A DNA stretch of 64,000 bases from Helianthus annuus (Eukaryota; Streptophyta; Magnoliopsida; Asterales; Asteraceae), in assembly GCF_002127325.2 (NCBI RefSeq), contig NC_035445.2, positions 86,267,912 to 86,331,911 on the forward strand, given 5' to 3'. How positions within the stretch are numbered: position 1 is the first letter of the stretch; every line of letters begins with the position of its first letter. The notes beneath the pieces are model-generated. The model made no database searches. It was not told the origin of the DNA and worked only from the letters and a program-made list of their open reading frames with translations. This document shows, in pieces, positions 343 to 62,351 of the stretch. The translations under genes and the position numbers were made by a program.

Positions 343-2914
343 ATGGCTTCATCATTGAAGAACACGTCCACGGCGATGTCTGCGGTCACTTCATCACAGA
401 TCACCTTGCCTCCTCCACCGGCAGGATCTCAGAAAAATACTGAGAAGAGATCAACTCCCACTTCCTCTAAACCTCTATCTTCTTCTGCTATGAATTCTTC
501 TATTCCCAGTACTAGTGATGTATTTGCTTTAATTTTGCAGATGAAGGATCGTATGCAGCGGCAAGATGAAACTAACGAAAGGATCCTCAGGGAAATTGGA
601 GATCTCAAAAGACAAAAGAAAGCGGCAGAGGATCATTCCCCACTGATGCCAAAATCCTTGAGTTTTGAGACTCCAATGGTCACCTCTCAGCCATCAGGGA
701 TCCCAGACGTACAGATCACAGGGGAGTCAAGAGGATCACGTCTCAACTCGGCAGCAATGACTCAGACATCAGATTCACATTTTCAGCCAATAGGATCCTA
801 TCCTCAGTACATGGGATCCTTCATTGAATCCGGGAGCCTATCCGGAGGCACAGCAGTTTCAAGGATCCTACTTTATTCCAGGATCATTCCAGGGTCAAGG
901 ATCCTCCTTTGTTCCAGGATCATCCCAGGTTCAAGGATCCTCCTTCGTTCCAGGATCATCCCAGATACCAGGATCCTTACAGATGCCAGGATCCCTAAAA
1001 AGTTTGCAAACAGGGAGTCTAGATGTCCATCAAGGGGACTTCATTCCAATGCAGACCATTGCTTCCACTGGTCCCTCCGTTGTTCCAGAATCCCAGCAAT
1101 ATGGATTCCCTAACTTGAACCCAATGGGAGGTAACACTTTAAATAATTATCCTACCACTAACCATGGATTCATGCAGGATACAGGTACCAATCACGCTAT
1201 GGCCAGGGAATTACAGAAACTAAAGGACATGATCTCAAGTGTTCCAAGGGTAGTCAAGCCTATCCCAGAGATTGCAGATGGAAGCCACAAGGTATCTCGC
1301 TTTGCACCACCAATTTGTGATGCAGAGGTGCCCAAAAGGTTCCATATCCCTACCATGAAGCTGTATGATGGCACAACGGATCCAGAGGAGCATATAGCAC
1401 AATACAGGGAAAGGATGGAAATCAATCCTATCCCAGAAAAGTTGAAGGAAGCATGCCTATGTAAAGGATTTGGATCCACTCTAACTGGATCAGCTCTTAA
1501 GTGGCTGCTAAGTCTTCCCCCTTACTCTATTACTTCATTTGCTAATTTAGTTAATTTATTCAATAACCAATTCTCTTGTAGTAGAAAATTTGAAAAATTA
1601 ACTAGTGATTTGTACAGGATAACTCAAAATAATAATGAATCATTAAGGGATTATATAACTAAATTTAGTAAAGAATCCTTGGATATTCCCAACTTGGATA
1701 TGGCTACGGCTGTTGAAGCCTTCAAAATGGGACTTCTTAAGGATTCATTATTCTATGATGATCTTGTTATGACACCTTGCAGGAATTTAGATGAAGTAAG
1801 AACTCGAGCACTCAGGTTTATCCGGCTAGAGGATGACAAGAGGATCCAGGAGAGACAAGTAGGATCCTCAAAACAAGATAAGCAAGGATCCTCCTTCAAA
1901 AACAACAAGTTCAAATCCTACCATAGAAACGAGAACAAGAATGTGCATGCTGTCGACCAAGAAGAGGATGATGAAGAATATCCTCCAATCTCAGAATATT
2001 GTTTTTCCGTTGATAATCATGAACTAATCCTTGCAATGCAGAATCTAGGTGAAAAGGCTAGGTGGCCCAGGAAGAATGATAAACCATCCGGGACTAAAGA
2101 CAAGTCCAAATGGTGTGCATACCATGAGGATTTCGGCCATCTGACTGAAGATTGCATAGCCTTAAGAAAGGAAATTGGATACCTGCTAAGCAAGGGGCAT
2201 CTAAAAGAATTGCTGGGGAGAAAAAAGCAAAGGACCCAGGATCCTGAAAGGATCCCCGAAAAAGCCCCAGCACCTCCGGCAAATGCACAAGTGATCAACT
2301 TTATATCCGGAGGATCAGACATCTGTGGTACATCCTTCTCAGCGGCCAAAAGATATGCAAAAGAATCAAAAATGGACAATGGAGAAAGGCCTGTTAGAAC
2401 ATCAAGTGTTTCAGAAGGGAAAACGATAACCTTTGATGAGGATGACCGCATTAACATCCAGGATCCTCATCATGATAGTTTAGTTATTACTCTCTTTATT
2501 TCTAACCATTTTGTCCGCAGGATCCTTATTGATGGAGGAAGTTCAGTCAACATTATCCAGCTTGATGTACTGAAGAAAATGGGTATCCCAGAATCAGACA
2601 TCACACCAAGATCCTCCGTGCTTGTAGGATTTAGTGGAGAAACGAAGAAAACTCTGGGGGACATCAAACTCCCAATCTATGTGGAAGGATTACATAATTA
2701 TCAGAAATTTTGTGTTATTGACTGTTTATCTTGTTGCAATGTTATCCTTGGCAGGCCTTGGATACATGATATGAAAGCAGTCCCATCCACCTACCACCAA
2801 TGTGTGAAGCTCCCTAGCCCATGGGGAATAATCAAGATCGAAAGTGATCAGCAAGAGGCTAAGGATTGTTATACCTCATCCATGAAGCCAACATCAAAGC
2901 CAAGGGAGCAATAG
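343..2914 (+). pseudogene. gag-pro: Gag-protease of element A, one frameshift
   Basis: The frame opens at the ATG at 343 (MASSLKN; an upstream in-frame TTG at 316 is not a likely start). One extra T near 824 (cattgaat, where B has catgaat) shifts the frame; from there it is open to the UAG at 2912. The order is: Ser/Pro-rich N-terminus, a coiled-coil-like stretch near residues 70-100, PGSSQ/QGSS repeats, the capsid-like retrotransposon gag domain (about 1330-1850), a CX2HX4HX4C zinc knuckle near 2110, and an aspartic protease with LIDGGSS near 2525. Gag would form the cytoplasmic particle and the protease would cut it. The coding text is full of GGATCC in all three frames. Confidence 0.88.
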
Positions 2915-6085
<3,171 letters not shown>

Positions 6086-6811
6086 TGTTGGGGCTGGATT
6101 TTACTATAAATGATCCTTATACGTGATCCTGACCAGTGATCCTTGTTTCTTTGGCAGATAGTGATCCTCAGCCAGACTTCAGGATCAGGATCATGGGACG
6201 ATATGGTGATCCTTACACTAACGGTCACTTCCACTTGTTACAAAATTGTTTTGCAGGAACACCTAGCAGGATATGCCCTACACATCATGATCCAGGGACG
6301 CGTTTTCACAAATATGGCAAGAGCTAAATTGGAGATAGACGTTGTACCGGATATGGAAACTTAGCTTGATTAATGGGCAGCAATTTAGGCTAGATTATCT
6401 TTATTTCTAAAGGGGTAATGAGCTGATTAGTGGTCTATCTACCTAAAATAAGTTACCTACACATGTATAAATACCACTCTTCCTCATTCGGAAGAACACA
6501 CACAACATATACGGCAACTCTCACACACTCAGACACCAAAAGCGATAGGGATCCTTGTACTCAGCTCATTATCATCCAAAGTTGTAATCATATTTTTGTT
6601 ATATTGAAGTTGGTGATCGGTAGTTGCCATCACCCGAGGTTTTTTATGCCGGAGATCATTCATTGATCAAGGGCTTTTTCCTCGTATAAATCATTGTGTC
6701 TTTGCATCTTCATCACAGAAGTGATCCTTTACTTTCATAATTAACCAAGCATCATACCCCGTTTTCATAAAGTTTGGTTACATTATCCTTGTGTGATTTT
6801 TGACCAAAACA
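6086..6811 (+). repeat. 5' LTR of element B
   Basis: It starts TGTTGGGG and ends ACCAAAACA. A TATA box (TATAAATA, 6466-6473) puts the start of transcription near 6500, so U3 is roughly 6086-6500. The word GATC occurs about 13 times in 726 bp, where about 3 would be expected by chance. Two short open frames in it are chance frames. Confidence 0.96.
6466..6473 (+). promoter_or_regulatory. TATA box of the B LTR promoter
   Basis: TATAAATA lies at the same place in the 3' LTR of B (16116-16123) and in the 3' LTR of A. From about 35 bases further on, the LTRs of A and B stop being identical, which marks the probable U3/R border. Confidence 0.7.
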
Positions 6812-6888: not shown

Positions 6889-9370
6889 ATGGCTTCATCA
6901 TTGAAGAACACGTCCACGGCGATGTCTGCGGTCACCTCATCACAGATCACCTTGCCTCCTCCACCGGCAGGATCTCAGAAAAATACTGAGAAGAGATCAA
7001 CTCCCACTTTCTCTAAACCTCTATCTTCTTCTGCTATGAATTCTTCTATTCCCAGTACTAGTGATGTATTTGCTTTAATTTTGCAGATGAAGGATCGTAT
7101 GCAGCGGCAAGATGAAACCAACGAAAGGATCCTCAGGGAAATTGGAGATCTCAAAAGACAAAAGAAAGCGGCAGAGGATCATTCTCCACTGATGCCCAAA
7201 TCCTTGAGCTTCGATACTCCAATATTCACTTCCCAGCCATCAGGGATCCCGGACGTGCAAATCATAGGGGAGTCAAGAGGATCACGTTTCAACTCGGCAG
7301 CAATGACTCAGACATCAGATTCACATTTTCAGCCAATAGGATCCTATCCTCAATACACGGGATCCTTCATGAATCCGGGAGCCTATCCGGGGGCACAGCA
7401 GTTTCAAGGATCCTATTTTGTTCCAGGATCATTCCAGGGCCAAGGATCCTCCTTTGTTCCAGGATCATCCCAGGTTCAAGGATCCTCCTTCGTTCCAGGA
7501 TCATCCCAGATACCAGGATCCTTACAGATGCCAGGATCCCTAAAAAGTTTGCAAACAGGAAGTCTAGATGTCCATCAAGGGGACTTCATTCCAATGCAGA
7601 CCATTGCTTCCACTGGTCCCTCCGTTGTTCCAGAATCCCAGCAATGTGGATTCCCTAACCTGAACCCAATGGGAGGTAACACTTTAAATAATTATCCTAC
7701 TACTAACCTTGGATTTATGCAGGATACAGGTACCAATCATGTTATGGCCAGGGAACTACAGAAACTAAAGGACATGATCTCAAGTGTTCCAGGGGTAGTC
7801 AAGCCTATCCCAGAGATTGCAGATGGAAGCCACAAGGTATCTCGCTTTGCACCACCAATTTGTGATGCAGAGGTGCCCAAAAGGTTCCATATCCCTACCA
7901 TGAAGCTGTATGATGGCACAACGGATCCAGAGGAGCATATAGCACAATACAGGGAAAGGATGGAAATCAATCCTATCCCAGAAAAGTTGAAGGAAGCATG
8001 CCTATGTAAAGGATTTGGATCCACTCTAACTGGATCAGCTCTTAAGTGGCTGCTAAGTCTTCCCCCTTACTCTATTACTTCATTTGCTAATTTAGTTAAT
8101 TTATTCAATAACCAATTCTCTTGTAGTAGAAAATTTGAAAAATTAACTAGTGATTTGTACAGGATAACTCAAAATAATAATGAGTCATTAAGGGATTATA
8201 TAACTAAATTTAGTAAAGAATCCTTGGATATTCCCAACTTGGATATGGCTACGGCTGTTGAAGCCTTCAAAATGGGACTTCTTAAGGATTCATTATTCTA
8301 TGATGATCTTGTTATGACACCTTGCAGGAATTTAGATGAAGTAAGAACTCGAGCACTCAGGTTTATCCGGCTAGAGGATGGCAAGAGGATCCAGGAGAGA
8401 CAAGTAGGATCCTCAAAACAAGATAAGCAAGGATCCTCCTTCAAAAACAACAAGTTCAAATCCTACCATAGAAACGAGAACAAGAACGTGCATGCTGTCG
8501 ACCAAGAAGAGGATGATGAAGAATATCCTCCAATCTCAGAATATTGTTTTTCCGTTGATAATCATGAACTAATCCTTGCAATGCAGAATCTAGGTGAAAA
8601 GGCTAGGTGGCCCAGGAAGAATGATAAACCATCCGGGACTAAAGACAAGTCCAAATGGTGTGCATACCATGAGGATTTCGGCCATCTGACTGAAGATTGC
8701 ATAGCCTTAAGAAAAGAAATTGGATACCTGCTAAGCAAGGGGCATCTAAAAGAATTGCTGGGGAGAAAAAAGCAAAGGACCCAGGATCCTGAAAGGATCC
8801 CCGAAAAAGCCCCAGCACCTCCGGCAAATGCACAAGTGATCAACTTTATATCCGGAGGATCAGACATCTGTGGTACATCCTTCTCAGCGGCCAAAAGATA
8901 TGCAAAAGAATCAAAAATGGACAATGGAGAAAGGCCTATTAGAACCTCAAGCGTCTCAGAAGGGAAGATGATAACATTTGATGAGGATGATCGCGTTAAT
9001 GTTCAGGATCCTCACCATGATAGCTTAGTTATCACTCTCTTTATCTCTAACCATTTTGTCCGCAGGATCCTTATTGACGGAGGGATTCAGTGGAGAAACG
9101 AAGAAAACTCTGGGGGACATCAAACTCCCAATCTATGTGGAAGGATTACATAATTATCAGAAATTTTGTGTTATTGACTGTTTATCTTGTTGCAATGTTA
9201 TCCTTGGCAGGCCTTGGATACATGATATGAAAGCAGTCCCATCCACCTACCACCAATGTGTGAAGCTCCCTAGCCCATGGGGAATAATCAAGATCGAAAG
9301 TGATCAGCAAGAGGCTAAGGATTGTTATACCTCATCCATGAAGCCAACATCAAAGCCAAGGGAGCAATAG
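6889..9370 (+). pseudogene. gag-pro: Gag-protease of element B, protease destroyed by an 89-bp deletion
   Basis: From the ATG at 6889 the gag frame is open through the repeats, capsid-like domain and zinc knuckle (about 8656), showing the frame that A has lost. At about 9080 an 89-bp deletion, compared with A, falls just after LIDGG of the protease active site. It removes the next 30 or so residues and shifts the frame, so the protein ends at 9153. The original frame resumes at about 9083 and reaches the UAG at 9368-9370. Confidence 0.9.
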
Positions 9371-12364
<2,994 letters not shown>

Positions 12365-13789: not shown

Positions 13790-15424
13790 TTACTTCTTCG
13801 CTGCTCCATCACCACCAGCTTCTCCACCCTGATCCTTGTCAGCATCACCTCCCTCCAACATTGGGATGTCCTCAGCATCATCATCATCTTCCAACTCTGC
13901 TAACCTTGCCTTCCAGCCTTCAACATCCCATATGCTCCTGTCAAAGGAAGGATCCTGAGCCTCCGTAGCCATCTGCAGTTGTATCCTGTACATGGTTATC
14001 GCGGCAGAGACCTTAGCATCTTGGGTGATCTCCTGCTTCTCGTTATCCATATCAATCAACCTTTGAGCAGCCTCAGTCTTCATGGCCCGGAGTTCCTTCT
14101 CAAGATCTGCTATCTTGAGATCCTTGAGCACGCCCATTTGTTGAAGGTCGGCAATCTGGCTCTCTTGATCCTCAACATGGCCTAGATAGGTCTCGATCTC
14201 GGCAAGTTTCTGCAAAGAAGGGAATAAGGTAAGTACAGAACCGGATGATCCTCGAAAGAAACAGGACATACAAACAGGATATTCAAAACGGATGACCAAC
14301 AGGGGCAGTGATCCTTACCTCATTCACGTAATCAAGGAATTGCTGACGGAGGAGGGGAAATCCTTGGAGATCTTCAGAGGTTTTCCTCTTTTTTCCCTTG
14401 CCCCGGATAGACGCTTTGGGAGCGGATGCTGAAGGACTGACAGCAGGAGCCTTCTTCTTCTTAGAAGACGTGACATTGGCAAGGTCACTTATCCCAAACA
14501 TGGAGGCAGATTTAACAGACCTGGCAGATTTTCCAGCACCTACACAATTCAAAAACAAGATAAGTTCCCTTCTCAAATTAAATATTCTTACATAAAACTG
14601 ACTTTCTATGAGGATACTTACTTGACATCGTGGCAGATGCAGAGGATATCTCTTGAGAATCTTGGATAATGATTTGGAAGCTTCTAACTTCAGGATCAAG
14701 CTTTTTAAAAGCTAACACTCTTTCTCTGGCAGCAGGGGTCAACTTTAAGTGAGCAACGAAGATAGCTGCATAGAAAAACAAAAAAGAAAAGACATCAGTG
14801 ATCTTCATCAGATGAGACAGGACTGATAGTGATCCTTCAAGGATCCTCTACCCTACCATGAGTGGCCCATTCCTTGGGCAGATCCTTCCCATCCGGGATG
14901 GAATCCCTCTTAACAAAGAAAAATCGACGTTTCCAGTTGGTATCATTCTTGGTCACTTTGAAAATAGGGTGATCCTCCCCAGCTTTCCGTTTCAGCAGAT
15001 ACCGGTGGGAACCAAACGTAGTAAGATCATAGAGCTCGGCCAGCTCTGCCATCCCCAGATCAATCCCTTCTTGCTCGATGATCCTCTCGAAGGTATATAG
15101 AACCCTCCAGATCATCGGCATAGCTTGGATATATGAGATGCCGGTAAGAGAAAAGAAAGATTGGGTGAACATCGGAAAAGGATATGAATACCCAATGAGG
15201 AAGGGAGTAGCAGGAAAAGCCACCCAGACATCTGAGACAAGATCGCTCAAAGCAGTAGGATCAAAGGGTTTGAAAACAACATTCGCTGGGAAACAATGGC
15301 GAATCTTGTCTATGTGGACATCAGTAAAGCAGCATCTCTCCACAGGAGAATCCTTGATAATTCCCTGGCTCTTTAAGGGACTCTCCTTCTTGGGACTCTT
15401 GTGCGGAGAATTACGGAGCAGCAT
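13790..15424 (-). CDS. Spliced antisense extra gene of B (450 aa, four exons)
   Basis: The exons, in reading order, are 15424-14857, 14765-14622, 14539-14319 and 14209-13790. Every intron has GT-AG ends and the frame joins exactly (568+144+221+420 nt). Exon 1 begins MLLRNSPHK and codes a globular domain with YPFPMFTQSFFSLTG and NWKRRFFFV. This resembles the plant putative gypsy-type transposon domain found in antisense or extra ORFs of Tat elements. Exon 3 is Lys/Ser-rich with GKGKKRK, a possible nuclear signal. Exon 4 is a coiled coil (QKLAEIETYLGHVEDQ and so on) ending in an acidic, Gly-rich tail. The function is unknown. Being antisense, its introns survived the sense RNA cycle that removed the sense intron. 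The domain name is from memory; the gene structure is seen directly. Confidence 0.85.
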
Positions 15425-15570
15425 ATTTTGAACAAAAAACAGAGTAAAAGCACGAAAGAACAGAGCAAAGAAGAGAAAGAAGAAGATGATACCTGATCAA
15501 GAGTCTTCAATGATGGTTATAAAGGGAGATACTTCGAATTTAAATACAAAATGATCCTAACCCTATCTCC

Positions 15571-16461: not shown

Positions 16462-16601
16462 GGAAGCTAGCACCAAAATGGGAAGGTCCCTACTTGATTG
16501 AAGCTGAAGCAGGAAAGGGGGCATACAGGTTGCTAACCATGGAAGGAAACTTGTTACCAAGAGCCTGGAATGCTGTTCACTTAAAGAAATATTTCATGTG
16601 A
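16462..16601 (+). pseudogene. pol: 3' end of pol of element A behind the B insertion
   Basis: It opens with the ggaag duplication (16462-16466) and goes on with the integrase C-terminal module (KLAPKWEGPYLIEAEAG) to the TGA at 16599. It matches 12225-12364 of B. Joined to 2915-6085 it gives a complete pol. Confidence 0.93.
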
Positions 16602-16667
16602 ACATGATCCTTCCTGCATGTGAAGTATCCTTGAAGGATCCTGGAGATATCGGTGATCTTTACTCTG

Positions 16668-16771
16668 GTAATATGCTTATCCTAAAACTATTGCATTTTC
16701 TTACTTTTTGCCTAAGGATAAGGATCATGTATCCTTCATCCTCTACTCACAAACCATTTGAGTTATGATAG
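16668..16771 (+). other. 104-bp sense intron behind pol in element A
   Basis: The segment begins GTAATATGC and ends TTATGATAG, so it has GT-AG ends, and it is T/A-rich like plant introns. D has the same 104-bp intron at 25113-25216 on the minus strand. B lacks exactly these bases. It starts about 66 nt after the pol stop, where a spliced junction might mark the RNA for nonsense-mediated decay. Confidence 0.88.
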
Positions 16772-17097
16772 TTCAGGTATCTCCAGCAAATCGTCAAAGA
16801 TCTCCAAGAGCACCACAGATCCTTGGGTCCAACCCCAGTTATCCTTGGGATTATCCCCAGTTTCCGCCAGCAGCGCACGATGATCCTGATATAGTTCATG
16901 TCTTTGGGATCAGTACCCATTTTCGGGGCTGGCGACCTCATCGTACTGGCTATACTTGGGATCCTACGTATAATGGTGGACGCACCATACATCCGTTCCT
17001 AAGGTTTCTAACGTTTTCACGTTAGCTAAGGTTTTGACATTTTCATGTCACTAAGTTTGGATAGTTGCCAGAAAGGGCCATACTCCAGTTTACATAC

Positions 17098-17283
17098 GAT
17101 CCTTTGGGCTTGTCCCCAGTTATCCTTCGGGCTTGTCCCCAGTGATCCTCCGGGATCATCCCCAGTTATCCTTTGGGCTTGTCCCCAGTGATCCTCCGGG
17201 ATCATCCCCAGTTATCCTTTGGGCTTGTCCCCAGTGATCCTCTGGGACCGTTCTCAGTATCCTTTGGGCTTGTCCCCAGTTAC
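17098..17283 (+). repeat. Tandem repeat block of element A
   Basis: Same 23/46-bp units as in B but fewer of them. Confidence 0.88.
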
Positions 17284-18055
17284 TAACTTATCTTTTATAT
17301 TGGGTTAGTCCCAAGTTATGTTCCATTTTCTCAGGTTTTCAAAGTTAAACAATTAAGGATCCTTAATCCTTATTATCCATTAAAGTCTTACCTATGGTTG
17401 TTCCGATTGAAGGTTAGGATCCTAACGTGGATCCTCAGGTATGATCCTTTACTATTTTTTATACTCTTTATCCTAACCGACCCTCACACTTTGACAACCA
17501 AACCCATGATCCTTGAACTACAATACTTTGAACATTTTCAACATCAGGATATTTGATCTAGGATCATATCCTGAATTTATTAAGTATACTTTCAACTCTT
17601 GCAAATATATTATAAAGACAACTAAGAAACAAGAAGATAAGGATAACAACACGAGATAAGCCAGAAAAGTTAAATTATAATAATTAAACAGAAGGATCAT
17701 TAACCCTTTCAAAAAGTTGTCAAAATTGCCAACCCACATTTCTACCAGCAAAACGTGGCCCGTCCACATGGGTTGGCAAAGGGTGTCCATTGTCTATGCG
17801 GTCTTAGCATTTTGCAGAAAATAAAAGCGGCAGGATCACAAAGGCTTCATCCCCCAAACAGAGGATCCCTCCACCTTTTGTAATCCTACCTATTGTTCAA
17901 AGGATCCAGGATCCTTAACCCTAAGAAACTATTGTTCAGAAATTACAAACCATAATTGTTCACAAACACCACTACCACGAGAAACCACTGCCGGTCCTAA
18001 AAAAATTGGGCTCCGGCCTAGTCTCGAAATATCCATCATCGCCCAATCATGCAGC
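17284..18055. other. Spacer of A between tandem repeat and antisense gene
   Basis: No gene is seen. It is homologous to 13013-13789 of B but visibly diverged, unlike the flanks, which are almost identical. Confidence 0.55.
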
Positions 18056-19691
18056 CTACACCTTCGCTGCTTCATCACCACCAGCATCTCCACCTTGATC
18101 CTTCTCAGCATCACCACCTTCCAGCATGGGGATCTCCTCAGCATCATCTTCATCCTCCAGGTCTGCCAGCCTTGCCTTCCAACCTTCAACATCCCACGAG
18201 CTTTTGTCAAAGGAAGGATCCTGAGCTTCCTCGGCCATCTGAAGTTGTATCTTATACATAGCGATTGCCGCGGAGACCTTAGCATCTTGGGTGATCTCCT
18301 GCTTCTCGTTATCCATATCAATCAACCTTTGAGCAGCCTCAGTCTTCATGGCCCGGAGTTCCTTCTCAAGATCTGCTATCTTGAGATCCTTGAGCACGCC
18401 CATTTGTTGAAGGTCGGCAATCTGGCTCTCTTGATCCTCAACATGGCCTAGATAGGTCTCGATCTCGGCAAGTTTCTGCAAAGAAGGGAATAAGGTAAGT
18501 ACAGAACCGGATGATCCTCGAAAGAAACAGAACATACAAACAGGATATTCAAAACGGATGACCAACAGGGGCAGTGATCCTTACCTCATTCACGTAATCA
18601 AGGAATTGCTGACGGAGGAGGGGAAATCCTTGGAGATCTTCAGAGGTTTTCCTCTTTTTTCCCTTGCCCCGGATAGACGCTTTGGGAGCGGATGCTGAAG
18701 GACTGACAGCAGGAGCCTTCTTCTTCTTAGAAGACGTGACATTGGCAAGGTCACTTATCCCAAACATGGAGGCAGATTTAACAGACCTGGCAGATTTTCC
18801 GGCACCTACACAATTCAAAAACAAGATAAGTTCCCTTGTTAAATTAAATACTTTCACATAAAACTTATTTTTTATGAGGATACTTACTTGACATTGTGGC
18901 AGACGCAGAGGATATCTCTTGAGAATCTTGGATAATAATCTGGAAGCTTCGAACTTCAGGATCAAGCTTCTTGAAAGCTAACACTCTCTCTTTGGCAGCA
19001 GGGGTCAACTTTAAGTGAGCAACGGAGATAGCTGCATAAAAAGACAAAAAAAGAAAAGACATCAGTGATCCTCATCATATGAGATAGAACTGATAGTGAT
19101 CCTTCGAGGATCCTCTATCCTACCATGAGTGGCCCATTCCTTGGGCAGATCCTTCCCATCCGGGATGGAATCCCTCTTAACAAAGAAAAATCGACGTTTC
19201 CAGTTGGTATCATTCTTGGTCACTTTGAAAATAGGGTGATCCTCCCCAGCTTTCCGTTTCAGCAGATACCGGTGGGAACCAAACGTAGTAAGATCATAGA
19301 GCTCGGCCAGCTCTGCCATCCCCAGATCAATCCCTTCTTGCTCGATGATCCTCTCGAAGGTATATAGAACCCTCCAGATCATCGGCATAGCTTGGATATA
19401 TGAGATGCCGGTAAGAGAAAAGAAAGATTGGGTGAACATCGGAAAAGGATATGAATACCCAATGAGGAAGGGAGTAGCAGGAAAAGCCACCCAGACATCT
19501 GAGACAAGATCGCTCAAAGCAGTAGGATCAAAGGGTTTGAAAACAACATTCGCTGGGAAACAATGGCGAATCTTGTCTATGTGGATATCAGTAAAGCAGC
19601 ATCTCTCCACGGGAGAATCCTTGATAATTCCCTGGCTCTTTAAGGGACTCTCCTTCTTGGGACTCTTGTGCGGAGAATTACGGAGCAGCAT
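18056..19691 (-). CDS. Spliced antisense extra gene of A (four exons)
   Basis: The exons are 19691-19124, 19031-18888, 18805-18585 and 18475-18056, with the same sizes and phases as in B (568, 144, 221, 420 nt; 450 codons plus stop). All donors and acceptors are GT and AG. The protein differs from that of B only at scattered residues, mostly in the acidic tail (KDQGGDAGGDEAAKV). This open gene contrasts with the frameshifted gag of the same element. A TATA box lies about 150 bp upstream. Role unknown; the antisense RNA would overlap the sense genomic RNA. Confidence 0.85.
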
Positions 19692-20002
19692 ATTTTGAAC
19701 AAAAAACAGAGTAAAAGCACGAAAGAACAGAGCAAAGAAGAGAAAGAAGAAGATGATACCTGATCAAGAGTCTTCAATGATGGTTATAAAGGGAGATACT
19801 TCGAATTTAAATACAAAATGATCCTAACCCTATCTCCTATTTATAATGATGATTTGCAGGGATCGTCACATCAGTGACGTAAATATCACAACGGCTAGTC
19901 CATATGTAACGGCTAGTAACCCGGAGTCGCCCGTTAGAGATAAGCTCAAAACAAAATATAACTCATCTATTTACAATTAACTCCTTATATTTTGGGGGCA
20001 AT

Positions 20003-22008: not shown

Positions 22009-22204
22009 ATTACGTCACTGAAGTGACATCCCTGCAAATCATGATTATAAATAGGAGATAGGGTAAGGATCGATTTGTATTTAAATTCAGGATATACTCC
22101 CTTTATAATCTCCACCGAAGATTGATCAGGTATTCTTTTCCTTTCTTTCTTCCTTTTCCTGCTCTGTTTTTCTGCTTTTGCTCTGTTTCTGTTCCGCCAC
22201 AAGT

Positions 22205-23839
22205 ATGTTGCTCCGAAATTCTCCCCATAAGGATCACGAGAAGAGCAGTCCCCTGAAAAGCCAAGGGATCATTAAGGACTCTCCTACGGAGAGATGTTGC
22301 TTTACCGATGCTCATGTAGATAGGATTCGTCATTGCTTTCCGGCGGATGCTGTTTTCAAATCCTTCACATCCACTGCTTTGAGCGACTTTGTTTCAGACG
22401 CCTGGGTGATCTTTCCTGCAACTCCGTTTACCATAGGATATTCGTATCCTTTTCCGGCCTTCACCCAATCTTTCTTTTCTTTGACCGGCATATCTTATAT
22501 CCAAGCTATGCCGATGATCTGGAGGGTCTTGTATACCTTCGAGAGGATCATCGAGCAGGAGGGGATTGATTTAGGGATGGCAGAGCTGGCCGAGCTTTAT
22601 GATCTTACCACGTTTGGTTCTCATCGATATTTGCTGAAACGGAAGGCCGGGGAGGATCACCCTGTTTTAAAGGTTACCAAAAATGATACAAACTGGAAGC
22701 GTCGTTTCTTCTTTGTGAGGAGGGATACCCTCCCTAATGGGAAGGATCTGCCCAAGGAGTGGGCCACCCATGGTAGGATAGAGGATCCTGGAAGGATCAC
22801 CATCAGACTTGTCTCTTATGATGAGGATCACTAATGTCTTTCTTTGTTTTTTGTTTATTGTGCAGCTATCTCCATTGCTCATCTTAAGTTAACCCCTGCT
22901 GCCAGAGAGAGGGTTCTAGCTTTCAAGAAGCTTGATCCTGAAATTAGAAGTTTTCAAGTCACCGTCCAAGATTCACAAGAAGTATCCTCCGCATCTGCCA
23001 CTATGTCAAGTAAGTATCCTTATTAAAAAGTAAGTTATATGTAAGATTTTTTAGTTAGTAAGGGAACTTATCTTGTTTTGATTGTGTAGGCGCTGGGAAA
23101 CCTGCTAAGTCTGCCTCCAAGTTCGGGATTGATGAACTTGCCAATGTCAAGTCTTCAAGAAAGAAGACTTCTGTTGCCAGTCCCTCTGCTTCGGCCCCTA
23201 AAGCACCTGTTAGGGGTAAGGGGAAGAAGAGAAAGACTTCTGAGGATCTCCAAGGATTTCCCCTGATCCGACGTCAGTTTCTCGACTATGTCAATGAGGT
23301 AAGGATCATTGCCCATGTTGGTTATCCTTCTCGAGTATCCTGCTTGTGTATTCTGCCTGTATATCCTGCTTCTTTGAGGATCACCTGATCCTGAACTTAC
23401 CTTTTTTTCTCTTTTGCAGAAACTTGCTGAGATTGAGACCTACCTTGGCCATGTCGAGGATCAGGAAAGCCAAATCGCCGACCTCCAACAAATGGGCGTG
23501 TTAAAGGATCTCAAGATAGCCGATCTTGAGAAGGAACTCCGGGCTACAAAGGATGAGGCTGCTCAAAGGCTGATTGACATGGATGGCGAGAAGCAGGAGA
23601 TCATCCAGGATGCCAAGGTCTCTGCCGCAACTGCTATGTACAAGATACAACTACAAATGGTTGCGGAGGCTCAGGATCCTGCCTTTGACAAAAGCTCATG
23701 GGACGTGGAGGGTTGGAAGGCAAGATTGGCAGAGCTGGAGGATGAGGACGAAGCTGAGGAGATCCCAATGCTGGAGGGCGGTGACGCTGACAAGGATCAG
23801 GGTGGAGAAGCTGGTGGTGATGGAGCAGCAAAGGTGTGA
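22205..23839 (+). CDS. Spliced antisense extra gene of D (446 aa, four exons)
   Basis: The exons are 22205-22772, 22866-23009, 23090-23298 and 23420-23839, with GT-AG introns and exact phase (1341 nt). TATAAATA stands at 22046-22053. The domain order is as in A and B: globular exon-1 domain (YPFPAFTQSFFSLTG, NWKRRFFFV), basic linker (GKGKKRK), coiled coil and acidic tail. Exon 3 is 12 nt shorter than in A and B. D is an older, more diverged copy whose gag-pol is broken, yet this gene has no stop or frameshift. Function unknown. Confidence 0.85.
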
Positions 23840-25294: not shown

Positions 25295-28386
<3,092 letters not shown>

Positions 28387-30957
28387 CTATTGCTCCCTTG
28401 GCTTCGAGGTTGGCTTCATGGATGAGGTATAACAATCCTTAGCCTCCTGCTGATCACTGTCGATCTTGATTATTCCCCATGGGCTAGGGAGCTTCACACA
28501 TTGATGGTAGGTGGATGGGACTGCTTTCATATCATGTATCCAAGGCCTGCCAAGGATAACACTGCAACAAGATAGACAGTCAATAACACAAAATTTCTGA
28601 TAATTATGTCATCCTTCCACGTAGATTGGGAGTTTGATGTCCCCCAGAGTTTTCTTCGTTTCTCCACTGAATCCTACAAGCACGGAGGATCTTGGTGTGA
28701 TGTCTGATTCTGGAATACCCATTTTCTTCAGAACATCAAGCTGGATAATGTTCACTGAGCTTCCTCCATCGATAAGGATCCTGCGGACAAAATGGTTAGA
28801 GATAAAGAGAGTAATAACCAAACTATCATGATGAGGATCCTGAATGTTAATGTGATCATCCTCATCAAACGTTATCATCTTCCCCTCTGAGACACTTGAT
28901 GTTCTAATAGGTCTTTCTCCATTATCCATTTTTGACTCCTTTGCATGCCTTTTGGCCGCCGAGAAGGATGTACCACAGATGTCTGATCCTCCGGAAATAA
29001 AGTTGATCACTTGTGCATTTGCCGGAGGTGCTGGAGCCTTTTCAGGGATCCTTTCAGGATCCTGAGTCCTTTGCTTTTTTCTTCCCAACAATTCTTTTAG
29101 GTGCCCCTTGCTTAACAGATATCCAATCTCTTTTCTTAAAGCTATGCATTCTTCAGTTAGATGCCCGAAATCCTCATGGTATGCACACCATTTTGACTTG
29201 TCTTTAGTCCCGGATGGTTTATCATTCTTCCTGGGCCACCTAGCTTTTTCACCTAGATTCTGCATTGCAAGGATTAGTTCATGATTATCAACGGAAAAAC
29301 AATATTCTGAGATTGGAGGATAATCTTCATCATCCTCTTCTTGGTCAACAGCATGCACATTCTGGTTCTCATTTCTATGGTAGGATTTGAATTTGTTGTT
29401 CTTGAAGGAGGATCCTTGCTTCTCCTGTTTTGAGGATCCTACTTGTCTCTCCTGGATCCTCTTGTCATCCTCTAGCCGGATGAACCTGAGTGCCCGAGTT
29501 CTTACTTCATCTAGATTCCTGCATGGTGTCATAACAAGATCATCATAGAATAATGAATCCTTAAGCAGTCCCATTTTGAAGGCTTCAACAGCCGTAGCCA
29601 TATCCAAGTTGGGAATGTCCAAGGATTCTTTACTAAATTTAGTTATATAATCCCTTAATGATTCATTATGACCTTGAGTTACCCTATCTAAATCACTGGT
29701 TAATCTTTCAAATTTTCTACTACAAGAGAATTGGTAAATGAATAAATTAACTAAATTAGCAAATGAAGTAATAGAGTAAGGGGGAAGACTTAGCAGCCAC
29801 TTAAGAGCTGATCCAGTAAGAGTGGATCCAAATCCTTTACATAGGCATGCTTCCTTCAACTTTTCTGGGATAGGATTGATCTCCATCCTCTCCCTGTATT
29901 GTGCTATGTGCTCCTCTGGATCCGTTGTACCATCATACAGCTTCATAGTAGGGATATGGAACCTTTTGGGTACCTCTGCATCACAAATTGGTGGTGCAAA
30001 GCGAGATACCTTGTGGCTTCCATCTGCAATCTCTGGGATAGGCTTGACTACCCCTGGAACACTTGAGATCATATCTTTTAGCTTCTGCAATTCCCTGGCC
30101 ATAGCATGATTGACACCTGTATCCTGCATGAATCCATGGTTAGTGGTAAGATAATTATTTAAAGTGTTACCTCCCATTGAGTTCAAGTTAGTGAATCCAT
30201 ATTGCTGGGATTCAGGGATAACGGAGGGACCAGTGGAAGCAATGGTCTGCATTGGAATGAAGTCCCCTTGATGGACATCTAGACTTCCTGTTTGCAAACT
30301 TTTTAGGGATCCTGGCATCTGGAAGGATCCTGGTATCTGGGATGATCCTGGAACGAAGGAGGATCCTTGAACCTGGGATGATCCTGGAACAAAGGAGGAT
30401 CCTTGACCCTGGGATGATCCTGGAACAAAGTAGGATCCTTGAAACTGCTGTGCTCCCGGATAGGCTCCCGAATTCATGAAGGATCCCATATGCTGGGGGT
30501 AGGATCCTGCCGGCTGAAAGTGTGAGCCTAATGCCTGAGTCATTGCTGTCGATCTGTGGTGCAATCCTCTTGATTCTCCCATAATTTGCACGTCTGGAAT
30601 TCCCGATGGCTGAGAAGTGATCATTGGAGTATCAAAGCTCAAGGATTTGGGCATCAGTGGGGAATGATCCTCTGCCGTTTTCTTTTGTCTTTTGAGATCT
30701 CCAATTTCCCTGAGGATCCTTTCATTAGTTTCATCTTGCCGCTGCATACGATCCTTCATCTGCAAAATCAAAGTAAATACGTCACTAGTACTGGGAATAT
30801 AAGAATTCATAGCAGAAGGAGATGGAGTTTTGGAGTTAGTAGAAGTTGGTCTCTTCTCAGCATTCTTCTGGGATCCTGCCGGTGGAGGAGGCAGAGTGTT
30901 CTGAGACGAGGTGACTGCAGACATCGCCGTGGACATGTTTTTCAATGATGAAGCCAT
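28387..30957 (-). pseudogene. gag-pro: Gag-protease of D with one nonsense codon
   Basis: The ATG is at 30957-30955. Gag is open through the PGSSQ repeats, capsid-like domain, zinc knuckle and protease LIDGGSS motif to a TGA at 28611-28609, where A has TTA (leucine). Beyond it the frame stays open to the UAG at 28387. The only visible lesion is this single base change. Confidence 0.92.
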
Positions 30958-31751: not shown

Positions 31752-32083
31752 ATACCTGCTCATAGTAATCTTTCTACCTCTTCCTGGATAATGGCATTTC
31801 TTTCTGGTGCAAATTTCCTCCTCTTTTGATGGATTGGTTTAACTGACCTGTCAATGCCAAGTTTATGAGTGATAATATCTTTAGATATACCTGTCATATC
31901 CTCATATTTCCATGTAAAGGTAGATTTTCTTCTTTTGAGGAAGGATACAATGTCTTCTTTCATTTGTCCAAGGATCCCTGATCCGATATAGATTTTGGAT
32001 TCAGGATCATCAGGATCCAGGAGGATTTCGTCCACATCCTGCTCTCTTGCCTCCAAGACATCCCTTGGAGGATACTTTAATTG
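31752..32083 (-). pseudogene. pol: N-terminal pol fragment of E, cut by element D
   Basis: MEAREQDVDEILLDP... to ...EEVERLL and a few further residues, matching the first part of pol in A. It stops where D begins, before any RT catalytic motif. Confidence 0.9.
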
Positions 32084-32089
32084 CTATTG
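32075..32089 (-). promoter_or_regulatory. UAG readthrough context of E
   Basis: CAA TAG CAA TTA AAG on the minus strand (TAG 32086-32084). The hexamer after UAG is kept although the next codon differs from A, B and D. Confidence 0.72.
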
Positions 32090-39743: not shown

Positions 39744-42700
39744 ATGTTGAAGATATTACTAGTCGTCTTCTTATCGGCGTTCTCTTCATGGGTGTATCAA
39801 ACAGCTGTTCCTCCACCGCCTAAGAAGCTTGGATCTCCAGATGGACCTCCTATTACATCTCCAAGGATAAAGCTACGTGACGGACGACATATCTCGTATA
39901 TCGAATCCGGTGTTCCAAAAGATGTAGCTAAATCTAGAATAATTTACATGCATTGCTTTGGTTGTAGCAAGTACCTTAATCCCTTTGCCTCAGCCTCACC
40001 GGTATGAATTAATATTCCTTAACTAATTAGCTTCCTACAGGACTGCAAACGAACCAAACGTTCAGCGAACAGTTCGTGAATCATGGAAGTTCGTTTGTGT
40101 TCGTTAGTTTATTAAACAAACGAATGCGAACAAGAAATTTCGTTCATTTAGTTAAATTAATAAACAAGAACAGAGATCGCGTTTGTTCATTTATGTTTGT
40201 GAACGTTTGGTAACGTGTTTGTTTGTGTTCGATAGTCATTAGTGTTTTTAGTTGTTATATTTTATATAAATACTTCAAAATTCCGAAATAAAATATTTAA
40301 TAAGTGTCGTTGTATTATATATTCTGTTTATGTACGCTTGTTTGTTTTCATTTTGTTCATGATCAACATTAGTTTGTGCTCATTTGTGTTTATCAACGTT
40401 CGTTTTTGTTTGTTGCCTAAAATTAACAAACAAACACAAACGAACACGAACAAGTTCATTTCCTCAATTAACAAACGAACACAAAATCTCGTACGGTAAG
40501 TGTTCATAAACAGTTCGTGAACACATATATTTCTTAACAAACGAACACGAACAAGGTCTTCTTCGTGTTCGTTTTGTTCATTTGCCGCTCTAGCTTACTA
40601 CATTATTTTTCGCGTCCCTAGACCCTACTCTACGAGTGAGATATTGTTGAGTATGTTTATTTATTCTTTTTAGTGTGCAATCTTATGCTCAAACTTTATT
40701 TTTGCAGGCAGTTGTTGAAGAACTAGGAGTATACATTGTTGCTATAGATCGTCCAGGTTACGGAGAAAGTGATCCTGATCCTAAGCGAACTGTGAAGAGC
40801 TTGGCGCTTGATATTGAGGAGCTCGCGGATCAACTGAACCTTGGACCCAAGTTCTATGTGGCTGGATTCTCTATGGGTGGACAAGTGATATGGTCTTGTC
40901 TCAAGTATATCCCTCACAGGTCTGTTTTCAAATCTTGATATTCTCGTACCAAAAAAATATTTTATTTTGAATACAACTCGGTTCGTTTTCATATTTATGT
41001 GATAAGCAGGCTTGCTGGAGCGGTTCTTATTTCTCCCGTTAATTACTGGTGGCATAACCTACCTTTAAACTTAACAAAGGAAGCATATTCTAGGCAACTT
41101 ATACAGGATCAATGGTCTATGCGTGTGGCTCATTATCTACCATGGTTAACCTATTGGTGGAACACCCAGAAATGGTTTCCTTCCTTTTCTGTTATCGATG
41201 GAAACCCTAGTCATAGTCCCTCAGACATAGAAGTTATAACAAAGGTATTCGGTTCCATGGATCCAGTTCAGGTATATATGATTTCGATGGAAAAAAAAAA
41301 CAGTTACACATACCATCTTTTATGATACTAATTATATACCCTTTTATTTTCTCTATCTAGTTTTACTCAGAGAAACAATAGACCACGATAAACTTTGCAC
41401 CACAATTAACCAAAAGAAACGATTATTAATTGTTCTCTTGTTTTATTTACGCCCTTTTCTAGGTTCACTTGTCACATAGAAAGATAAAAAGAGTCTTCAA
41501 TGCATTCAAAACGTACAAAAGAAAAGAAAAAGAAAAAGAAAAAGAAAAGATAAGATAAGATAACATTATGCTTGTTTTTTCTTTTACTGTTCACATGCTA
41601 CTAAAAAACAAGAGACTATGATTTTAGCTTTACGTACACATTTTCATGCTTGTTATTTCTTTTACATGTCATACCCTACTAAAAAACTGACTTCTTCCGA
41701 AGCAATGTTGAATTTTGTTGCGTACTAGGTTGTTTCTTCCTCTGTATTACGGTGGGAAACCAACTTTTTGGAAAGCAAAAGTAACTAAACTAATTAACAA
41801 TTTGGTTATTAAAAATGATTTATGTTTTAGTTAGAGATTTCTAATACAATAACATAACTATTATAAAACTCAAAACTAAATACATACATATCCGAGATAC
41901 ATATCCGAGTGATGCCATTCATAATCCTAACTTATAAATTGATGATGACTCACATGTTGCTAGGAAAAATCTGATAATGTGGATTAGAATAATTTAGTTA
42001 TATAGTCTAAATAACATTAATAGGATCTCAAATTCTACAAACTCTGTCATTGCCTCCCATTGTTAACCATCATTCGGCCGCTCACACCCCAAAGGAATTA
42101 AGTTGTCAAGACTCTTTAGCGTTAGCACCACTTCCTCCAAACACACAACCACCCAAATGTTGCTTTTTAACATGTAGTATGACGTTTTAAACAACCGGTC
42201 GATTTAAAACAATAACGTTATGAAAATTAATGTCGAAATGTAGATAAACAAAAATAACGTGCACTACTAATACTAATTGAAACTATATACAAAAGATAAA
42301 ACATGAAAAAAATCATAACATCGTAACGGTAATTCGTTTAAAATTTAGAGCGGTAACTCTATTAAAATTCAGGGGTTGTAGTGTAAAGCTGTATAAAAAG
42401 AATAAAAATAACTTTATTAGAATTCATGGGACGCTTGATAAATTTATTAAAATTTAAAATTCATGGGCTAAAAATTTTAGTTGGTAAAAAAACTAATAAA
42501 ATTTTAGGGGGGGGGGGGGGGGGGGTAAAGTGTAAGGATAAAAACATTTGTGGTTAAAATATGAAGAAAAAAGAATAATTGGTGTTGCCGGAACTCTTAC
42601 AAATGCCGCTCAAAAGTCACTAAATTACCTAAATGCCATTAAAACAAAAATTAAATATGTGAGTGTATGGCATATGTGACGTAATTTAATATATTGTATA

Positions 42701-44853: not shown

Positions 44854-45284
44854 AGGGAGGTCACCGTTGTCTTGTTGACAATGTTCTTTTCTCGTACTTA
44901 CTATCTCTTTAAGTAATTAGGGGTGCACCGTTGCTTTCTAATAAACTTTTTCTCTCCCTCTTCGTCTCCCCCTGATCGCCGACGGCTCGACGAGGGCGGT
45001 AAGCCGGTTTAGAGTGCGAGGTCACCTTCCTGTGGTTCGACCCTTCATCCTAAACCGTTATTCTGTTTACTGGCTCTCCATTCGCCGGTTGGGATCGGGT
45101 TTCGTTTGGTCTGTGTTTCTTTCCCTCGACGCTGTTCGGAGACTTTGGCCGGTCCTGTACAGGTTGGCTTAGCGGGTCTGATATCGATCGCGAGTCCCTT
45201 GTTCCCTTGCTTGATCGTTTCGAATCCCGTTAACACTCCCTTGTGTTGGTTGCTGGTCGGAGTTCTCACTGGTGCTCCGGTCTA

Positions 45285-46994
45285 ATGGCTGGGGGTAGGT
45301 TTCTCAAGCTGTTTGTTACTAATCTCCCCGATGGGTGTACTCCTTGGGAGCTCAGAAGAAGTATGGAAGCTTTTGGAGATATTGCAAATACGTACGTTGC
45401 CAAGAAGAGAGACAAGACGGGAAGCAGGTTTGGTTTCGCTACATTTAAGGATATCAGGGATGACCGGGAGTTACTGAAGAGTCTTGAGGGGGTTAAGATG
45501 GGAGACTTCAGGTTAAAGATTAATGTGGCGAGGTTCTCGGCGGAAAACTTGGGTGGCAGCGTTAAACAAGTCAATTATTCTAATCAGGTCAGTAATGGTG
45601 CTAAGAACTCCTTCGGAAGAAACGATAACCTCAGGGGTGCTAGAAGTTATAGAGACGTGGTGGGGATGGCAAAAGAAGCAGGTGGAGCGAGTGCAGGCTA
45701 TGACGGGTCTAAGGAACCTAATGAGAAGGTGATTGTGGTGCCGGACAGATCTGGGGCATTCGAGAACCTTGTTGGGGTGGCTCTGGTAGGAAGAGCAGTG
45801 GATTTGGAGACTTTAGTTGACTTCGACAGGTTATTGAAGATTGCTAAACTGCCAGTTGCGAATTTCCAGTATCTCGGTGGTTTATCTCTGTTAATTACGT
45901 TTCATGACGAGGAGGCGGCTAAGCGTTTTCGGGAAGGTAAGAATATTTGGAGCCCATGGTTTTCGAGGTTAGACCCGTGGAGAGGTCAGACTCTTCCACT
46001 TGAAAGGGTAGCTTGGCTGAAGCTGTTCGGAATTCCCTTGCACCTGTTTGACTCGGAGGTGATGGGTCAAATCGGTGAGTCTTTTGGGAAGGTTCTCTTT
46101 GTGCCCAAGTTTTTTGAAGAGGATCATGATTTATCGGTATCCAGGGTGGGGGTGTTGGTTAGCTCTTCGGTTAGGATCAAAGAAGAGATCTCTTTGAGAT
46201 GGAAAGATAGGACGTTCAGGGTCTGGGTAGAGGAGGACCATCAGATTTGGGTCCCGGATTGCTTCGATAGAGAGGAGTGGTCGGAAGCGTCGGAGATTAA
46301 GTCACCGGAGGTATTTGTGGTTGACGGCATGCAGACCTCCGGCACCGGGGAGAAGGAGGAGAACATCGTTTCGGGTGCAGGTGGGGAAGCCGAGGAGCCG
46401 CATGTTCCAAACGTTTCATCTCCCCATGTTGATGTGCTTCCAGAGAATGTGGAAAGAGAAAAAGGCGGCGCCCCTGTCGAGGGCACCTTTAATGATTCGG
46501 ACAATTTGGAAGGTGGTGTTCATGTTTCAAAAGTGGTGGGGCCTGAGGGCGTGGTGGGCTTCAAAAGTGGGTCAGGACAGAAGTGCAAAAAGACAAAAAG
46601 GAGGGGTATCTTGGGCCAAAAATTTGGTAAGGCCCAAACGCAGTCAAAAGGGATCAAGGACAAGTCGCCAGAAGGGTCTAGGCCCAAGAAAAGGTCCAGG
46701 AACTGCGAGAATGAGGACGAACCTGGATTCGGCTTCATAGGGTTCACTTCCAAATTACCGTCTCAGTTCGATCTGAATTCTAGAGCTCAGTCAACGGATT
46801 CGTTAGCTGCTGACTCTCTCTCTCAAGGGAATCAACTAGTGGAGAACTTCCTTCGGAAGCATGGTGGAGTCTCGGACGAGGAGCTAGCAGCGACGATTGA
46901 TATTGGCGCTCAAGTGGGTGTCGAGCTTGGAAGCAGTGCTCTAAACGCCATCAAGGATCAAGGATTTTCAGGTATTAATGGGGTGAAGCCATGA
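45285..46994 (+). CDS. LINE ORF1, RNA-binding protein (569 aa)
   Basis: The first ATG of the frame is at 45285 (the frame is open slightly upstream but starts there only with GTG). Residues about 6-80 form an RRM with RNP2 LFVTNLP and RNP1 RFGFATF. A DUF4283-like region follows (GGLSLLITFHDEEAAKRF...PLERVAWLKLFGIP), then a long charged tail with GQKCKKTKRR and PKKRSRN, possible nuclear signals. No CCHC knuckle is seen. It would coat LINE RNA. Its TGA overlaps the ATG of ORF2. Confidence 0.88.
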   Translation: MAGGRFLKLFVTNLPDGCTPWELRRSMEAFGDIANTYVAKKRDKTGSRFGFATFKDIRDDRELLKSLEGVKMGDFRLKINVARFSAENLGGSVKQVNYSNQVSNGAKNSFGRNDNLRGARSYRDVVGMAKEAGGASAGYDGSKEPNEKVIVVPDRSGAFENLVGVALVGRAVDLETLVDFDRLLKIAKLPVANFQYLGGLSLLITFHDEEAAKRFREGKNIWSPWFSRLDPWRGQTLPLERVAWLKLFGIPLHLFDSEVMGQIGESFGKVLFVPKFFEEDHDLSVSRVGVLVSSSVRIKEEISLRWKDRTFRVWVEEDHQIWVPDCFDREEWSEASEIKSPEVFVVDGMQTSGTGEKEENIVSGAGGEAEEPHVPNVSSPHVDVLPENVEREKGGAPVEGTFNDSDNLEGGVHVSKVVGPEGVVGFKSGSGQKCKKTKRRGILGQKFGKAQTQSKGIKDKSPEGSRPKKRSRNCENEDEPGFGFIGFTSKLPSQFDLNSRAQSTDSLAADSLSQGNQLVENFLRKHGGVSDEELAATIDIGAQVGVELGSSALNAIKDQGFSGINGVKP

Positions 46995-52705: not shown

Positions 52706-53333
52706 TGTTGATGCAACAAACACGGGACCAAGGATGGTAGCTAAGCTGGTTAGGCAAAAGGGCTGAAGGGTTCAGTTTTGCCTAACGCAGGTCGCGGGGT
52801 CCCTCCACGTTTGCAAAACGTGGAAGGAGGTTCACTAGTATGTTTTTGTTATTTGCTTTGAGGTTCTTTCTCCGAGGCCAGCTCGGATCCAGAAAAGAAA
52901 GCAAATGGAACGAATGTGAGATGAATCAGGTCAAGAGTTGTTTGGAAGTGACAAAGAACTCTTTGAATGACTAGAGATTAAGGAATCTCTGTGTTTTCGG
53001 AATGTCTTTGAAGTGTTCAGGAGCTGTCCTCTTATAGTGGAAGACTCTTCCTGAAATGGCATAAACTATACTAGCGAGACCTGTTTGCATATGGAGGGTT
53101 TCCCCTTTTGGGGTTGAAGGCTTTGGACCCCTGGTTAATAGAGTGTGGCTGTGCAGACCTGCTCTGACTTTGTGAGTTGGTGAGCATGGGTTGGTGAGAC
53201 TAGTCCTTGGACATGACTGATTACTGTTTCTCGATTTCCTCATTTTACAGCTTTTGATCCGATGAACCTTTCAACCTTTTAAGCTCTTTGCATATTAATC
53301 ATTTTGTTTATCCTTGGGCTACCCCCGTCGTCA
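52706..53333 (-). repeat. 3' LTR of element F
   Basis: 628 bp; on the minus strand it starts TGACGACGG and ends GCATCAACA. A G-rich polypurine tract (minus-strand complement of 53334-53343) directly precedes it. Confidence 0.95.
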
Positions 53334-53670
53334 GCCCCCCAAGTCAGAGGTTTTTGGGGTAGTATACTCAAAGACTTCTGACTTTTATGCACGTCTTTTA
53401 AAGGCTTCAAGGGTTCGTTGCTTGGAGGCTTGAGAGGTTTGAGGCAGTTACTTTTTTGAATTTTGAATTTGAAACGATTTGACAGTTGATTTGATTGACA
53501 TGTGTCAGGCGGCGGTTTTGCAGGTACCATTTATTTACCTTTATTACCCTTACTTTATTATCATATTTATTTTGTGTTTGGAAAATTTCTTCACTTTACT
53601 CTCAATCATTCACAGTATCCTTCCTCAGGTTAGTTTCTCTCCTTCATTTTCGTTTTTGCTTTGTTCAATC

Positions 53671-62289: not shown

Positions 62290-62351
62290 GGTGGTTTTGA
62301 ATGCAAGGAGCTACACGTACCAGGTCTCTTTTGAGGAGAAACAGCGGCGTA

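Follow-up and report, generated by a model that had tools for sequence, protein, structure and literature searches.

A candidate tobacco-mosaic-virus-type leaky UAG between the gag-protease and pol frames of a Tat-clade retrotransposon family in sunflower

The stretch of Helianthus annuus DNA analyzed here (the window; 64,000 nucleotides of contig NC_035445.2) holds in its first 36 kb copies of a single Ty3/gypsy family, some nested and some in tandem, and four of these copies (A, B, D, and E) carry the junction between gag-protease and pol that is the subject of this report (Table 1). Copy A codes for Gag, aspartic protease, reverse transcriptase (RT), RNase H, a second RNase H, and integrase, as read from Pfam matches and motifs. 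Its gag-protease frame contains a Retrotrans_gag match (E=7.8e-14), and the protease, for which copy A gave no Pfam match, is placed by motif alone, through ILIDGGSS and LGRPW in the translation, which we take to be protease motifs. In both A and B the RVT_3 match falls after RT_RNaseH and before Integrase_H2C2, and the domain order is that of the angiosperm type of the Tat clade, GAG-PROT-RT-RH-second RH-INT, with the protease again placed by motif. An additional RNase H placed after RH and before INT is described as a mark of angiosperm Ogre or Retand elements (PMC6317226). TRP28 (PF04195), the antisense ORF typical of Retand, was matched by none of the eight ORFs of at least 150 aa scanned between 13.8 and 23.8 kb; two sunflower Retand clusters without TRP28 have LTRs of 719–720 bp and internal regions of 9.31 kb (PMC11963269), and the LTR of the window family (~726 bp) is close to that length. 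By comparison with published descriptions, the family is a Tat-clade Ty3/gypsy family with a second RNase H and probably belongs to the Retand lineage. Its gag-protease frame is 97% identical to the H. annuus protein P0003, which represents a cluster of 103 sequences. Antisense ORFs of 153–241 aa recur downstream of pol, ahead of the 3′ LTR, in several copies (13790–15496 and 18056–19763 on the minus strand, 22109–23839 on the plus strand), with no Pfam family above cut-off and only weak matches to PF19833.

The copies are damaged to differing degrees, with 706 (A), 113 (B), 73 (D), and 236 (E) open codons before the stop and 1064, 997, 554, and 107 after it. Copy A lacks everything from the end of pol up to its 3′ LTR; the unit that follows (16462–19996) begins at the pol end, and the truncations of copy A and of that unit thus coincide almost exactly, near 12222–12229 in copy B. 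On the minus strand, copy E is cut short and joined to the LTR of copy D at 31753. The window also holds a second Tat-like element (56746–62310, minus strand), in which a single frame of 1,854 aa with no stop spans gag through integrase. Identical repeats bound the element at 52706 and 62373, and its opposite-strand ORF (53473–54402, plus strand) contains Transposase_28 (PF04195). The protease-RT linker of this element is not alignable with the stop-bearing family and therefore carries no information on the stop codon. A LINE at 45234–50629 has an ORF1 with RRM and DUF4283 and an ORF2 with endonuclease, RT, and zf-RVT, the two lying in different frames whose stop-to-stop extents overlap by 16 nt.

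Table 1. Positions of the junction and neighboring features in the four family copies of the window.
Feature	Position	Strand	Remarks
Copy A gag-protease open frame	794..2914	+	Stop-to-stop ORF of 706 aa, ends at TAG
Copy A candidate leaky stop CAA-TAG-CAA-TTA	2909..2920	+	TAG 2912-2914, CARYYA hexamer 2915-2920
Copy A predicted 9-bp hairpin	2927..2948	+	Arms 2927-2935 and 2940-2948; 12 nt past stop
Copy A pol frame	2915..6109	+	RT, RNase H, second RNase H, integrase; gag-protease frame
LTR apparently common to A and B	6086..6811	+	~726 bp, TGTT...AACA, from self-comparison; followed by GTTTGGCGCCCACCGTGGGGC, which resembles a primer-binding site
Copy B 12-mer	9365..9376	+	Identical to copy A 12-mer
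Copy B pol frame	9371..12364	+	In-frame gap in RT relative to copy A
Copy D 12-mer	28381..28392	-	Identical to copy A 12-mer
Copy D pol frame, first part	26722..28386	-	RT and RNase H
Copy E 12-mer	32078..32089	-	Next codon AAG where others have CAG
Copy E pol stub	31763..32083	-	107 codons

The gag-protease frame ends in the exact 12-mer CAA-TAG-CAA-TTA in all four copies, as an earlier note on this DNA had claimed, and the stop site of tobacco mosaic virus (TMV) itself reads CAA UAG CAA UUA. One further place in the window lies within two mismatches of the 12-mer (42576–42587), which brings the matches at that tolerance to 5, vs. 8.7 expected by chance. Each copy translates as ...REQ-stop-QL(Q/K)YPP..., with PREQ or SREQ as the last residues before the stop. 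Pol starts at the base directly after the stop and in the same frame as gag-protease in all four copies, and its first methionine is residue 41 in each, codons 1–40 being without ATG. The earlier statement that there is no start codon near the beginning of pol was thus borne out, and the statement that pol continues in the same frame holds for every copy, with the qualification that pol of copy E ends ~110 codons on, at the next LTR, and is therefore a stub. Type I readthrough sites are defined by UAG followed directly by CAR YYA (PMC2754532, PMC11166343); CAATTA occupies this position in the four window copies, and the frame that remains open past the stop encodes the conserved domains RT, RNase H, second RNase H, and integrase. 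The four copies differ pairwise by 9–37 per 300 nt, and over the opening 100 codons of pol they show silent variation at 30 and amino-acid changes at 10. In the 615-nt junction, 102 of the 604 12-mers (17%) are invariant in all four copies, and the identity of the motif inside the window, taken alone, is weak evidence for more than chance. The idea that this identity proves selection was rejected on the same count, and the hint of selection that had been drawn from copy E, which keeps the hexamer despite a changed next codon, likewise amounts to little evidence.

Across the 3.01-Gb genome, the 12-mer has 7,187 exact matches (3,608+3,579) vs. 203 (106+97) for a reversed-motif control, an excess that makes its occurrence non-random. 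Among 28 motif places (L012–L039), 26 are the gag-protease/pol junction of the family, the exceptions being L012 and L038. Junctions were also sampled from continuous stretches (200 kb, 50 kb, and the window) by tblastn with the last 110 protease-side and the first 110 pol residues as queries, individual junctions not being picked by motif. This gave 17 junctions with full flanks, 4 from the window and 9 and 4 from the other stretches; a further junction, truncated where L060 ends, was set aside, and a match of 39% identity in the single-frame element of the window was left out of the count. CAA TAG CAA TTA is intact in all 17 (the four window copies included), and the family members without the hexamer, or with UAA or UGA in place of UAG, that the earlier note had named as grounds against its reading did not occur among these junctions, whose stretches were picked for richness in motif places, so that motif fixation may be overstated. 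Variation falls on 24 of 40 third positions and 17 of 81 other positions in the flanks and on none of the 12 motif positions. The five motif sites at which a change would be silent or stop-neutral show none (0/5), vs. 24/40 neighboring third positions (hypergeometric 0.017), a value to be read with the descent of the sunflower copies from one another in mind, which makes the 17 junctions non-independent.

Downstream of the stop, a 9-bp hairpin (CCTCCRAGG/TCTTGGAGG) is predicted to start 12 nt past the stop in all four window copies. In 22 distinct sequences, drawn from 43 junctions of which 26 had been chosen for the motif, 99% of cells keep the pairing, vs. 36–66% when the arms are slid by 1–3. 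Changes in the hairpin are one-sided, and the majority still pair, as in G-U to A-U. In a single junction (L013), the opening 42 nt of pol were equaled or surpassed in folding by 0.45% of 2,000 synonymous recodings, and in an exploratory run of the same test on copy A the first window ranks second of 72 pol windows. Folding of the 130 nt that follow the stop is unremarkable (z −0.8 to −1.6). A strong pseudoknot after the stop was rejected as a candidate, folding having given a hairpin only. The predicted hairpin is a lead that may have a role in readthrough.

Relatives in other plants were sought by protein searches that contributed the best 120 of 125, the best 120 of 726, and 80 matches; the first of these, the source of most of the C-termini, was restricted to lengths of 0.55–1.75 × 706 aa, a filter biased toward proteins whose end is at the stop. 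The set comprised 282 proteins among the matches listed, two of them window fragments. Of these, 46 end within 75 residues of GRPW, and 43 of the 46 end 50–57 residues past its G, again among the matches listed; the 43 include one fragment of the window itself and many Helianthus proteins. The homologous end point is found in Helianthus, Tagetes, Deinandra, Erigeron, Bidens, Lactuca, and Centaurea, and further in Chenopodium, Beta, Spinacia, Saponaria, and Silene, so that the position of the stop recurs across genera and orders at ~37–75% identity. The last residue before it is A in 16 of the 43 proteins, Q in 13, I in 5, G in 3, and another in 6; this residue is not conserved, the 5′ CAA is therefore local, and the CAA that the earlier note read before the stop in all four copies does not generalize.

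Among the matches listed, proteins with GRPW that run past the site number 20 with the conserved CY motif and 55 without it, in our reading mostly gene-model joins, deletions, or different lineages. Three natural proteins have one sense residue (K, K, and Y) at the position of the stop, followed by QL, in an otherwise unbroken junction. Silene P0088 reads LPS-K-QLQ vs. LPS* in P0081 (P0088 has SY instead of CY and so falls among the 55); Centaurea P0156 reads PQDI-K-QLQ vs. PQDI* in P0278 (P0156 is without GRPW and so stands outside the run-on count); and Microthlaspi P0161, one of the 20, reads HQL-Y-QLES, with Y as the 53rd residue from the G of GRPW. Lysine and tyrosine codons are one step away from UAG, and also from UAA. 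The Tagetes gene models P0028 and P0124 resume exactly at QL. The Daucus proteins P0152, P0155, P0162, P0163, and P0164, together with P0059, form one frame with no clear stop-QL site, except for PQL in P0155; P0152, P0155, P0162, and P0163, and P0164 in part, are single-ORF gene models, and the existence of such relatives means that a leaky stop is not required across the whole lineage. The remaining run-on proteins are uninformative about the site. Protein sequence alone was compared outside sunflower, so we infer UAG CAR YYA there from the Gln-Leu, and with it the identity of the stop (UAG or UAA) and the Leu codon. These comparisons suggest that relatives of the family elsewhere among flowering plants retain a stop of the leaky type. 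No DNA of relatives was found in viral contigs, in which 11 pattern loci hold no relative at E 1e-3; a scan of genome contigs yielded 18 loci, and plasmids yielded three distant records. The closest of the 18 loci (L065, a 4.7-kb Streptomyces clavifer contig, BMWJ01000029.1) has 40% identity and one open frame without a stop, encoding a Tat-like polyprotein that includes two RNase H domains, and is perhaps plant contamination of the assembly.

Taken together, the UAG that ends gag-protease is read here, with a probability of roughly 75%, as a programmed leaky stop of type I that would set the ratio of Gag-protease to Gag-Pol as in TMV. Most ribosomes would stop at the UAG and release Gag-protease, and a minority would insert an amino acid there and produce Gag-protease-RT-RNaseH-RNaseH-integrase, so that RT and integrase would be made in smaller amounts than Gag. 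The protease, lying upstream of the stop, would be made together with Gag, unlike that of murine leukemia virus (MLV), and a stable hairpin predicted 12 nt past the stop may increase the leakage. From the sequence we infer each of these elements, namely the readthrough, the inserted amino acid, the product ratio, and the part played by the hairpin. A TMV-UAG site gave 32% readthrough in leaves, with tyrosine inserted in Nicotiana benthamiana, and UAA or UGA in place of UAG at the TMV site did worse (PMC2754532). The TMV-type interpretation of the earlier note is partly supported, by the exact type I context, the in-frame pol, the 17 of 17 junctions, and the position of the stop in relatives, with Gln-Leu after it in the three sense variants; its hint of selection and its claim of novelty are weakened.

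The main rival is splicing, because Ogre does so: with an Ogre-like intron over the stop, unspliced RNA would give Gag-protease and spliced RNA would give Gag-Pol. The Ogre ORFs are parted by a region averaging 274 bp, an intron that only some of the transcripts lose by splicing (PMC6317226), and alternative splicing is known for some sunflower retrotransposon RNAs (PMC7730604). Gene models from Centaurea, Arctium, and Tagetes apparently bridge the stop site with introns, and the metagenome protein P0145, from a jgi contig 2,915 bases long, is without the stretch around the stop, where Arctium P0188 is also joined, a gap that reflects either spliced RNA or a deletion. In the window family, however, a lone stop parts the two frames, and the would-be intron region (DQQEAKDCYTSSMK) is conserved protein. 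Under a rough plant matrix, all donors within 400 nt upstream score below zero in the four copies, and no phase-matched donor-acceptor pair at least 70 nt apart exceeds 0.9 bits. Splicing, which also gives no reason for the conservation of the hexamer, is considered unlikely.

A second alternative is that the stop is a neutral relic inherited from one founder and that the match to the TMV context is coincidental. The sunflower copies do derive from related founders, 17% of junction 12-mers in the window are equally invariant, and single-ORF relatives exist; against this, the stop recurs at the same position in other genera and orders, Gln-Leu follows the three sense variants, and a fixed stop with no bypass would leave pol unexpressed despite thousands of family copies, which makes a relic very improbable. 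Least probable is an ordinary stop with Pol made separately (through internal initiation, through reinitiation, or on a short RNA transcribed from a promoter inside the element), for which there speak the suspected readthrough junction of Candida Tca2 that turned out to contain a weak promoter (PMC2194720) and the in-frame methionine at pol residue 41, ahead of the RT core, and against which stand the absence of that methionine from the relatives P0127 and P0128, the lack of any in-frame ATG closer to the stop, and the conservation of UAG and hexamer that it leaves unexplained.

A broader proposal, that in eudicots (Asteraceae, Caryophyllales, and Brassicaceae) this branch of Tat/Retand has long kept under selection a leaky UAG of the TMV type where protease meets RT, with help from a hairpin, is about evenly balanced. 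If true, plant genomes, rather than RNA viruses, would carry a widely conserved type I signal, in thousands of copies per genome. The mechanism behind the excess of Gag over Pol in plant LTR retrotransposons is settled for few families, and the main strategies in a 2025 review are frameshifting and short GAG transcripts (PMC12786077); a genome-encoded leaky stop of the TMV type would, if true, be a third, testable route. A signal studied in viruses would then exist in thousands of host copies, and host control of stop leakage would therefore bear on transposition as well as on viruses.

The likeness to the TMV replicase lies in UAG followed by the CAR YYA hexamer, in the in-frame extension, and in the plant ribosomes that would read it, whereas the sunflower site lies at the Gag-protease/Pol boundary of a retrotransposon, has a predicted hairpin after it, and has relatives without the 5′ CAA. 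The parallel with MLV (type III) drawn in the earlier note stands as far as UAG between Gag and Pol in one frame and the setting of a Gag to Gag-Pol ratio are concerned, but the sunflower family has the CAATTA hexamer, a protease upstream of the stop, and a predicted hairpin. MLV uses a purine-rich spacer and a pseudoknot, and its protease arises through stop suppression according to a title in the reference list of the same source (PMC2194720). Type III sites have a purine-rich octanucleotide followed by a compact pseudoknot; at the sunflower junction the next 8 nt are CAATTACA or CAATTAAA, which do not fit this pattern, and folding predicts a hairpin. Ogre, also of the Tat clade, shares Gag-protease and RT-RNaseH-integrase in two ORFs and a second RNase H before the integrase, but its ORFs are parted by the intron region averaging 274 bp, whereas the sunflower family has a single stop codon; no intron region of some hundred bp was found between its frames, and the splice sites are weak. 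Soybean SIRE1 (Ty1/copia) is likewise a plant retroelement with stop suppression (PMC2829016, PMC2194720), but its stop lies between pol and the envelope-like ORF. Candida Tca2 has a similar gag-stop-pol layout with readthrough undetectable in a Saccharomyces cerevisiae reporter (PMC2194720), and by analogy it is a warning that such a plausible layout can exist without detectable readthrough in yeast. Closer to the present family, 41% of Retand clusters, those without a single ORF, have gag and pol in two ORFs (PMC11963269), and no mention of readthrough was found in the available text of that paper. In the literature searched, which lacked most subscription papers, no description of UAG CAR YYA at a plant Gag-Pol junction was found, and in one literature search PMC2754532 alone combined "retrotransposon," "CAR YYA," and "readthrough." That 2009 paper cites rice RIRE2, which has been placed in Retand (PMC6317226), for candidate stop readthrough (PMC2754532), and the claim that no description existed for this family was therefore too strong for the lineage. 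RIRE2 is a cited readthrough candidate of the same probable lineage, and what is new relative to this precedent is the pattern across plant families, the predicted hairpin, and better support.
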